Assembly: GCA_019119675.1 (NCBI GenBank)
Contig: DWWO01000150.1
Span: 1-41,520 of the forward strand
DNA length: 41,520 nt
From: Candidatus Mediterraneibacter faecipullorum
Lineage (GTDB): Bacteria; Bacillota; Clostridia; Lachnospirales; Lachnospiraceae
Direction of reading: 5' to 3'
Under the pieces are notes generated by a model. That model made no database searches. It saw only the letters and a list, made by a program, of their open reading frames with translations, and was not told the DNA's origin. A program made the translations under genes and the position numbers. Positions 29,329 to 31,396 of the stretch are shown in pieces. The first letter of the stretch is position 1, and the number at the start of each line of letters is the position of its first letter.

Positions 29329-29748
29329 ATGGATACATTTGGTCTGAAAATCATAGCAAGTGACAAGGTCTTTTATGAGGGCCGCTGTAGAAAACTCATC
29401 ATCCCTGCTCCTGACGGAGAGAAAGGGATCCTGCCAAATCATGAAAATATGGTCATAGCCATTGCTGTAGGTACGGCCAAAGTCCAGCTGGCAGGAGAAG
29501 AAGAGTGGAGAGAACTTGCGGTAGGGACAGGATTTGCTGAGATCGTGAACAACCGTGTCACGCTTCTGGTAGACACTGCCGAGCGCCCGGAGGATATCGA
29601 TGTCCGCCGCGCACAGGAACAGCAGGAGCGTGCAGAAGAGCAGATGCGGCAGAAACAGAGCACGCAGGAATACTACCACACCCAGGCATCCCTCGCCAGG
29701 GCAATGACCCGATTAAGAGTAGCCCAGGATAAGAAGTGGAATATATAA
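29329..29748 (+). CDS. atpC: ATP synthase F1 subunit epsilon
   Basis: 139 aa. N-terminal beta sandwich (FGLKIIASDKVFYEGRCRKLIIPAPDGEKGILPNHENM) and C-terminal two-helix region (VRRAQEQQERAEEQMRQ..., LARAMTRLRVAQDKKW), which can brake ATP hydrolysis. Last gene of the operon; the terminator starts 12 bp later. Confidence 0.95.
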   Translation: MDTFGLKIIASDKVFYEGRCRKLIIPAPDGEKGILPNHENMVIAIAVGTAKVQLAGEEEWRELAVGTGFAEIVNNRVTLLVDTAERPEDIDVRRAQEQQERAEEQMRQKQSTQEYYHTQASLARAMTRLRVAQDKKWNI

Positions 29749-29759
29749 TAACAGTTCAG

Positions 29760-29822
29760 CCATGAAAAAGGACAGGAGAGAAAACCGTGCTTGTACGGTT
29801 TTTCGCCTGTCCTTTTTCATGG
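29760..29822 (+). terminator. Nested terminator of the atp operon
   Basis: An outer 17-bp perfect stem (CCATGAAAAAGGACAGG and its complement, 29760-29776 / 29806-29822) encloses an inner hairpin AAAACCGT/ACGGTTTT followed by TTTC. The inner hairpin is an ordinary terminator; the outer arms make it unusually stable and usable in both directions. Confidence 0.8.
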
Positions 29823-29827
29823 AGTGA

Positions 29828-29896
29828 GCGCCAGAGTATGAGCAAAGAAGCGGCGGCAGCCGCAGTAAGCACGAAGTGCGACTTTGCGAATGGCGC
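29828..29896 (+). repeat. Structured repeat element, intact copy
   Basis: 69 bp able to fold as a three-way junction. GCGCCA (29828) pairs with TGGCGC (29891), GCAAAG (29842) with CTTTGC (29882), enclosing hairpins GCGGC/GCCGC (29850-29863) and GCAC-GAA-GTGC (29869-29879). The copy at 29924-30154 keeps the fold, with CTTTGC changed to TTTTGC, which still pairs through G-U. It may be a mobile palindromic element or a structured RNA; no protein gene is credible here. Confidence 0.7.
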
Positions 29897-29923
29897 GGCT
29901 GAGTTGTTGTGGACGGAGCCGGA

Positions 29924-30154
29924 GCGCCAGAATATGAGCAAAGAAGCAGCGGCAGCCGCAGTAAGCACGATAGTGTACTGTATCATCCACATTTCGCATA
30001 ATGACTTGCCTGAATTCCCATCTGCTACGTTGTCGTCAATCGACGATGCCACCGCATCGCCTCATTCCTCCGCCTTGCAGAATGAAAATTCATTCTACGT
30101 CATTTTGCTGAAAGTGGATGGTATAGTACACTAGTGCGATTTTGCGAATGGCGC
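29924..30154 (+). repeat. Structured repeat element, copy split by an insertion
   Basis: Left part 29924-29970 and right part 30133-30154 match the intact copy with few changes; removing 29971-30132 restores its spacing exactly. The break lies in the 3-nt loop of the GCAC/GTGC hairpin. Confidence 0.7.
29971..30132. mobile_element. 162-bp palindromic (MITE-like) element
   Basis: Ends are inverted repeats of 34 bp with 28 identical positions (29972-30005 and 30099-30132; outer ends AGTGTACT/AGTACACT). The interior has small hairpins (TCGTC-AATC-GACGA; GAATG...CATTC). It has no coding capacity and interrupts the second structured repeat. No target duplication is evident. Non-autonomous mobility is inferred from the clean insertion. 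Confidence 0.65.
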
Positions 30155-30343: not shown

Positions 30344-31396
30344 ATGGATGTTTCTTTTGCAGGTTTCTGTCAGCAGGTCTTTTCCAATCCTGTTCTGATG
30401 GTAACGGTAGTGCTCACTTTGGGCGTGATATTTGTAAACGGTTGGACCGATGCGCCGAACGCGATCGCCACATGTATCGCCACAAGATGTCTGAAAGTAA
30501 GGACCGCGATCCTGATGAGTGCTGTGTTTAATTTCTTGGGAGTGCTCGTTATGACGCACATTAACAGCGCCGTGGCATCGACGATCAGTAACATGGTCGA
30601 CTTTGGCGGGCAGACAGAGGAAGCGCTTATTGCATTGTGCGCGGCGCTGTTTTCAATCGTTGTCTACAGTGTGGCCGCTTCTGTGTTCGGCATACCGACG
30701 AGTGAGAGCCACAGTCTGATCGCAGGACTTACAGGAGCAGCGATCGCTATACACAACGGCGTCGGAGGTGTCAATTTTAACGAGTGGGTGAAAGTCCTCT
30801 ATGGGCTTGTGCTCAGTCTTGCACTCGGTTTTTTTATGGGCTGGGTGATCTGCAAGATCATCACTATAATCTGCGCGTCCATGGACCGGCGCAGGACAAA
30901 TGGATTCTTTACTGTGGCGCAGATCTTCGGAGCTGCTTTCATGAGCTTTATGCATGGCGCACAGGACGGGCAGAAATTTATCGGCGTACTGTTCTTAGGC
31001 GTTGCGTTCTGCAACGGGCAGAGCAGCGTCGAGGGGATGATCATCCCGGTATGGCTCATGCTGCTGTGCAGTACGGTCATGGGCGTAGGGACGAGCGTCG
31101 GTGGAGAGAAGATCATCAAATCTGTAGGAATGGATATGGTAAAGCTGGAAAAGTTCCAGGGATTTTCCGCGGACCTGGCGGGAGCGGTGTGTCTGCTCCT
31201 CTCCAGCGTATTCGGTATTCCGGTATCGACGACACATACAAAAACAAGCGCGATCATGGGAGTCGGCGCGGTGAAGAGACTGTCAGCGATCAATTTTGGC
31301 GTTGTAAAGGATATGATGCTGACATGGATCTTTACATTTCCGGGCTGCGGACTGATCAGCTTCATTGTTGCAAAGATATTTATTATGGTATTTTAG
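30344..31396 (+). CDS. pit: Low-affinity inorganic phosphate transporter (PiT family)
   Basis: 350 aa, about ten helices, with the two inverted family signatures: FVNGWTDAPNAIATCIATR near the start and the second-half GIPVSTTHTKTSAIMGVGAVKRLS, plus GIPTSESHSLIAGLTGAAIA. PiT proteins carry metal-phosphate with protons or sodium. ATG 30344 has AGAGGG 8 nt upstream; the longer frame to 30275 overlaps the leader hairpins. Twelve bp separate it from the DUF47 gene, a usual pairing. Confidence 0.95.
   Translation: MDVSFAGFCQQVFSNPVLMVTVVLTLGVIFVNGWTDAPNAIATCIATRCLKVRTAILMSAVFNFLGVLVMTHINSAVASTISNMVDFGGQTEEALIALCAALFSIVVYSVAASVFGIPTSESHSLIAGLTGAAIAIHNGVGGVNFNEWVKVLYGLVLSLALGFFMGWVICKIITIICASMDRRRTNGFFTVAQIFGAAFMSFMHGAQDGQKFIGVLFLGVAFCNGQSSVEGMIIPVWLMLLCSTVMGVGTSVGGEKIIKSVGMDMVKLEKFQGFSADLAGAVCLLLSSVFGIPVSTTHTKTSAIMGVGAVKRLSAINFGVVKDMMLTWIFTFPGCGLISFIVAKIFIMVF

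Follow-up and report, generated by a model that had tools for sequence, protein, structure and literature searches.

Bacterial MITEs are usually regarded as insertion sequences in decay, with an interior that can drift freely. Elements of the REP / IS200-IS605 type are defined as having neither inverted-repeat ends nor a target duplication. The nearest published mechanistic parallel that we found for the element reported here appears to be RUP with IS630-Spn1. RUP is described (PMC2229807) as a 107-bp element with TA at its ends and in its target, and it is proposed there to be moved by IS630-Spn1 into TA. As far as that account goes, both are short MITEs with TA ends and a TA target, and in both the terminal repeats resemble the ends of an IS630-family element. 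Our insert, compared with RUP by description, differs in its length of 159 bp and in its structured core common to two phyla. ERIC (IRU) of enterobacteria, given as a 127-bp element with TA ends and a target duplication (PMC2229807, PMC2759123), belongs to another host group and was likewise compared by description.

The Correia (NEMIS) elements of Neisseria are given as about 105-155 bp long with TA ends, and stem-loops in their transcripts are proposed as RNase III targets (PMC2229807). The short words CAAGGCG and CAACGC are common to them and our core. In 13 viral contigs, which we take to be Correia-bearing through a Correia string that they hold, the core models R1 and R2 reached 2.9 bits in place at best and a core-word motif with closing stem gave 0 hits. 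Membership in Correia / NEMIS is rejected, since neither the models nor the motif find Correia in these contigs.

The surrounding repeat is a described one. Clostridiales-1 RNA (RF01699), which in the account of Weinberg et al. 2010 (PMC2864571) is probably RNA and probably not cis-regulatory, is the outer element at our locus; the insert is a different thing. For the core-bearing superfamily, no description was recognised in the literature searched, and a search with the core words gave unrelated subjects, judged by titles and abstract starts. This MITE superfamily of two phyla is apparently undescribed.

The insertion between atpC and the permease gene

The window is the whole stretch of DNA analysed, 41,520 nucleotides of contig DWWO01000150.1 from Candidatus Mediterraneibacter faecipullorum. 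It contains an atp operon with atpC as its last gene and, downstream, a phosphate permease gene that is matched in 46 of 58 genomes of the genus (E 1e-100). The following features are distinguished here:

29329..29748, plus strand: ORF behind the other atp genes, which we take to be atpC (ATP synthase epsilon subunit)
29746..29909, plus strand: outer element, first complete unit, matching Clostridiales-1 RNA (RF01699) by cmscan
29826..29897, plus strand: first inner unit of ~70 bp, intact, loop GCAC-GAA-GTGC, from sequence
29922..29970, plus strand: second inner unit, left part, from sequence; uninterrupted in G037, G045, G057 and G020
29971..29972, no strand: target duplication TA, left copy, from empty alleles and the same 2-bp footprint at a second locus
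29971..30004, plus strand: left terminal inverted repeat including TA; 28/34 against the right one, 20/26 against an IS630-type end in G018
29973..30131, minus strand (the probable RNA strand of the core): MITE of 159 bp without the flanking TAs, from sequence, orthologues and ends
30100..30133, minus strand: right terminal inverted repeat including TA; 28/34 against the left one
30132..30133, no strand: target duplication TA, right copy, on the same evidence as the left copy
30134..30154, plus strand: second inner unit, right part, from sequence
30344..31396, plus strand: ORF, presumably a PiT-type phosphate permease gene

The outer element aligns with positions 1-166 of the 166 of RF01699 with 27.9 bits (E 5.3e-4), which is full length though below the Rfam gathering cut-off of 48 bits. 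Five matches in the own genome reach the model and three exceed the cut-off. A BLAST search of the region against the own genome gave 43 matches, of which about 40 are dispersed pieces of the outer element. Together with one further copy of the insert, these pieces indicate that the observation is not due to chance. Clostridiales-1 (window 29746-29909; L002-L004, L006-L020) behaves as a dispersed repeat whose ends are AACAGTTCAGCC / GGCTGAACTGTT; its inner units stand in tandem in L002/L003. Rfam lists it as an sRNA gene, despite the about 40 pieces in this genome.

An earlier, sequence-only reading had described two ~70-bp units 96 bp apart, the second of which is interrupted by 162 bp with inverted ends, the break lying in a 3-nt GAA loop without target duplication. 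The two units (starts 29826 and 29922), the interruption and the inverted ends are confirmed from the sequence, the identity of 28/34 coming from a by-eye comparison of the two 34-mers. The size and the absence of a duplication have to be corrected: the interruption 29971-30133 consists of TA, 159 bp and TA, with a net gain of 161 bp. The break does lie within the GCAC/GTGC loop, but with TA duplicated the restored loop has 4 nt (GATA) instead of the 3-nt GAA. Among 12 inner units of the own genome that follow a strict pattern, the loop has 4 nt in six, 3 nt in five and 6 nt in one, and TA is present in two. The 159 bp are non-coding and carry no transposase gene.

The own genome has two copies of the insert, that of the window and a second one on another contig (G000:C82:18805-18967, L005). 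At this second locus the empty allele of G024 reads GTGAGC-TG-GTGTGACA and the filled one GTGAGC-TA-[159]-TA-GTGTGACA. Thus two bases stand in the empty allele where the filled one has TA + 159 + TA, which means a 2-bp duplication.

Of the 46 genomes that have the permease gene, 30 were read at the orthologous locus. Two of them, the own genome (G000) and G027, have the insert there; the same insertion, truncated, lies beside atpC in G036, which was reached via separate matches. At this locus the second unit is uninterrupted in four relatives (G037, G045, G057 and G020), and in G020 and G057 its loop is GCAC-GTTA-GTGC, 4 nt long and TA-bearing. The left junctions of the filled sites read GCACGA-TA (G000), GCACGT-CA (G027) and GCACGT-TG (G036). 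Only G000 has kept TA at both junctions; those of G027 are CA and CG, and the one junction left in G036 is TG. These three junctions suggest that the loop TA was probably the target. With empty alleles here and at the second locus, and with further copies of both elements in the genome and its relatives, the proposed nesting stands; neither of the two outcomes named beforehand as speaking against it (other genomes in which the outer element always includes the segment, or no other copies of either element) occurred. As a whole, the earlier observation is partly confirmed and its interpretation partly supported.

In gene trees of the permease and atpC, which are weakly supported in part, the filled genomes G000, G027 and G036 do not form a clade, so that the history also requires loss, gene conversion or horizontal transfer. 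Between G000 and G027, the insert and the first unit are 95-97% alike, with 91% for atpC and 86-87% for the permease. This greater likeness of the insert stretch fits transfer or conversion of the stretch, or repeated loss. That this loop was hit independently in G027 and G036 is rejected, as all three filled sites lie directly behind atpC and the insert identity is 95% for G000/G027 and 94% over 118 bp for G000/G036. In G036 several kilobases (L092:6586-11432) lie between atpC and the permease gene, adjoining the truncated MITE; they include presumably ABC-transporter-like genes.

In our preferred reading, the second Clostridiales-1 inner unit, which stands between atpC and the permease gene, had a TA in its loop, and a non-autonomous, non-coding MITE of the IS630/Tc1 type (159 bp) inserted at that TA. 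An IS630-family transposase probably acted in trans by a cut-and-paste step. TA was duplicated on insertion, the duplication being exact in G000. Members of the superfamily keep a folded core, with differing terminal repeats. We consider it likely, taking both parts jointly, that this is an IS630/Tc1-type MITE at the loop TA and a member of a wide superfamily with a selected folded core, most likely RNA. As an insertion the event is of an ordinary kind; the element is unusual.

The core-bearing superfamily and its ends

The middle of the insert contains the core, whose parts are:

30014..30087, minus strand: conserved structured core of 74 nt, from the covariance model R1 and covariation
30028..30041, minus strand: internal-loop strand 2, conserved (GATTGACGACAACG), from core alignments
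30042..30061, minus strand: variable hairpin P2, with 6/8 pairs changed on both sides, 8/8 in a wider set
30061..30077, minus strand: internal-loop strand 1, conserved (CAAGGCGGAGGAATGAG), from core alignments

Read on the minus strand, the core runs from a closing stem through CAAGGCGGAGGA.TGAG, P2 and GA.TGACGACAACGC.G to the other side of the closing stem. The window copy scores 90.1 bits with R1, whose training set A1 includes its near relative from G027. None of the covariance models of Rfam 15 gave anything over the cut-off on the core in the window stretch and six loci scanned. A global alignment of whole elements across subfamilies gave no result, the arms being too different: the middle is constant and the arms are of many unrelated types. 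In L104 (7178-7252 and 7898-7972, minus strand), the internal-loop strands are replaced by the perfectly complementary GGATTTTC and GAAAATCC.

A BLAST search with the insert over 99 genomes, the own one included, gave matches in 14, some of them partial, and its middle 62-64 bp are found at 81-84% in nine Streptomyces plasmid records. Scanning genome contigs with patterns gave at least 119 core stretches in Lachnospiraceae, other Clostridia, Streptomyces and one Anaerovibrio MAG; 80 of these loci were displayed as sequence, and their conservation is inflated by the exact patterns used to find them. In total, 138 distinct core-bearing stretches were obtained from 213 loci. Within the window's phylum, R1 detected the core in 18 of 398 genomes, the own one included (13 of 267 genera); in Actinomycetota it did so in 13 of 296 genomes, the chosen Streptomyces atratus included. 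Five of the latter hits are strong and eight weak; among the weak ones L347 looks coding and is counted as a false positive, that of G661 was unread, and six have a diverged core (CAAGGCG..GAGGA and GACGA.CAACG in L343-L345). Ten named genomes chosen as carriers have from 1 copy (Roseburia inulinivorans, Faecalimonas umbilicata) to 42 copies (Streptomyces atratus). No phage record matched the insert, and two core patterns gave 0 hits each in viral contigs. The superfamily explains a group of palindromic repeats present in genomes of Lachnospiraceae and Streptomyces, and with R1 a covariance model is now available for finding its members.

In the window copy the core lies inside a TA-ended palindrome. 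Such a palindrome (inverted repeats with TA ends, at least 13 of 18 bases matching) is found around 24 of 33 distinct model hits, with nine failing, and around 0 of 33 controls; the 33 hits were 35 before merging and come from 27 of 30 phylum-scan loci and five Streptomyces loci. In the Actinomycetota sample, one locus was read in 11 of the 12 genomes besides G500 (G661 being the unread one), and three loci passed (L341, L343, L345). L339, L340, L342, L344, L346, L348 and L349 failed though they are palindromic-looking relatives, and so did L347. With eight of 11 failing, a TA target is unsupported for the commonest Streptomyces type, which has TTAGACC/CTAAGACC ends.

Recognised ends were set for 77 of the 138 stretches; the other 61, many of them Streptomyces elements with the TTAGACC-type ends, had no end pair that passed the cut-offs and were left out. 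In these 77, C precedes TA in 51 and G follows it in 54, which gives CTAG as the usual target; these counts are low estimates, since some of the 77 have an end placed inside the repeat (L095, L128). The length including both TAs is 163 bp in 36 and 156-164 bp in 62 of them.

The sequence-only reading had also asked for an autonomous transposase that shares the ends. PF13358 (DDE_3, IS630) is found in six of the 58 genomes of the genus, five of them over the cut-off. In G018, the PF13358 elements have ends like TAGTGTACTGTATTGTTGACATTTAA, spaced by 1280-1281 bp at four of the five loci examined and by 717 bp at the fifth. This IS630-type end equals the left end of the insert in 20 of 26 bases, a score that is reached by 22 of the 149,249 TA-starting 26-mers in the loci examined, redundant copies included. 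Element ends in G028 (TAGTATAATCCAC) and G021 (TAGTACATCGTT) resemble those of other MITE subfamilies. Such transposases with related ends were therefore found in the genus but not in the own genome, where PF13358 is absent (95% complete), so that its own insert copies may be fossils. PF13340 (IS5 N-terminal domain) was found in 0 of the 58 genomes. A degenerate 21-base end pattern with three mismatches matched 58 of 58, and the reversed control was of the same order in many, among the matches listed. The insert thus has inverted repeats, a 2-bp TA duplication, ends shared with the IS630 family and several copies without a transposase gene. Its likeness in ends to IS630-type elements of the genus suggests that TA insertion of the IS630/Tc1 type can explain the insertion.

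In one Streptomyces subfamily the ends may point to a different family. In three of six plasmid regions, its end TAGGGCCTGTCCGGCGGATC, exact or nearly so, is 37 bp away from where an IS5-annotated transposase gene starts. A second matching end is found 1.4-1.8 kb off, beyond another gene, and in these three regions no good end was found directly behind the transposase gene. Because of the distant second end, we hold with moderate confidence that one core may stand on the ends of both the IS630 and IS5 families. The core could then be a trans-acting small RNA, or a host-factor site, of a mobile system that uses several transposase families, a reading compatible with the preferred one. One core with IS630-like ends in Lachnospiraceae and an end close to the IS5-annotated gene in Streptomyces would fit it, but the remoteness of the second Streptomyces end and the lack of a good one just behind the gene speak against it, and we regard it as possible but doubtful. 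Only tentatively can a new class of non-autonomous transposons be suggested, in which a portable RNA module, carried on IS630/IS5 ends from gut Clostridia to Streptomyces, would promote its own spread or survival.

Two further arrangements were noted in these loci. In L181 (454-887), an element of ~430 bp has MITE-like ends and a run of similar short tandem units in place of the core, and adjoins a core MITE. In L119 (7299-7650, Streptomyces atratus), an element with ends CTAGGGCCTGTCCGGCGGATC contains a core MITE whose own ends are TTAAGACCGACCGGC, a second case of an element within an element.

Probable selection on the folded core

Covariation was examined in alignment A1 (34 of 41 diverse cores) and in the wider alignments A2 and A3, which were fitted to the structure of the model. 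In A1, 89.5% of the pair cells are paired, and RNAalifold recovers P2 unaided. Cells with changes on both sides of a pair number 54 in the 34 sequences, compared with 15.6 in shuffles and 15 or fewer in slid controls. In the wider sets they number 130 (48.3 shuffled) and, with the six diverged Actinomycetota cores included, 161 (54.1 shuffled); in this last set all eight P2 pairs show changes. Further pair types number 30, 38 and 43, against 21.7, 30.7 and 34.2 in shuffles, and none of 500 shuffles was as high in any set. The number of pairs with both-side changes has a weak excess or none, being equalled by 31, 267 and 41 of 500 shuffles, respectively.

G.T and A.C mismatches were also counted in core and arms. 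On the minus strand, G.T outnumbers A.C in the core by 52 to 11 and by 35 to 8. In the arms of 118 of the 138 stretches (13 were too short and seven near-duplicates were dropped), the counts are 469 to 232, with 12 clusters in favour, 2 against and 5 ties; the two largest clusters supply most of the arm excess, and the third in size has no excess. The preponderance of G.T over A.C suggests that a single folded strand, most likely RNA, is under selection. Folded single-stranded DNA may give a G.T bias too.

The orientation towards neighbouring genes shows no bias, with 23 sense and 25 antisense among the tandem cases. A fixed role in the mRNA of the neighbours is unlikely when no orientation is preferred, and cis-regulation with fixed orientation is rejected on these counts. 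We infer that the core would serve the element itself, for example in its expression, stability or mobility, and not the regulation of neighbouring genes.

These results bear on a simpler view, in which the element is an ordinary MITE and its core only old transposon DNA, kept by common descent without RNA function. The direct evidence for mobility is all compatible with any MITE, the neighbouring genes show the same absence of bias, and the count of pairs changed on both sides does not clearly exceed that of shuffles. However, the compensatory-change cells and the further pair types exceed all shuffles and slid controls, the G.T excess is on one strand, and the core is kept where the terminal repeats are wholly different. 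This view is thus unlikely, and we prefer a selected folded core. In the core-bearing MITEs the inside is the most conserved part, with compensatory folding, and is common to differently ended elements of two phyla. Whether MITEs carry working RNAs becomes a directly testable question.

Choice of the insertion site

As the break falls in a hairpin loop, the sequence-only reading had considered single-strand hairpin targeting as in REP/IS200-like systems, in which folding of the outer element would have directed the insert to the loop. A preference of this kind was looked for at 75 insertion sites. The complementarity of the flanks was as high in 92 of 1000 shuffles, and stems of at least four pairs occur at seven of the 75 sites, with 4.7 expected (p 0.17); at least two of these seven probably have misplaced ends. 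The mean stem length is slightly above shuffles (p 0.039). There is not clearly a hairpin preference at these sites; a weak one is possible. For our insert, the TA duplication and true inverted repeats depart from the REP / IS200-IS605 definition, and the CTAG-like target and IS630-type ends also argue against hairpin targeting, which we consider very unlikely. The loop would have been hit because TA lies there, not because it is a hairpin.

A longer outer element that always includes the segment is practically out of the question: the same composite does stand at the locus in three genomes, but this reading is refuted by four genomes whose second unit at this locus is uninterrupted, by 18 other displayed outer-element copies of the own genome that lack the segment, and by core-bearing elements elsewhere in many genomes.

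To be noted, the second copy of the insert in the own genome (G000:C82:18805-18967) also borders on a Clostridiales-1-like hairpin stretch, judging by eye from several orthologous loci.
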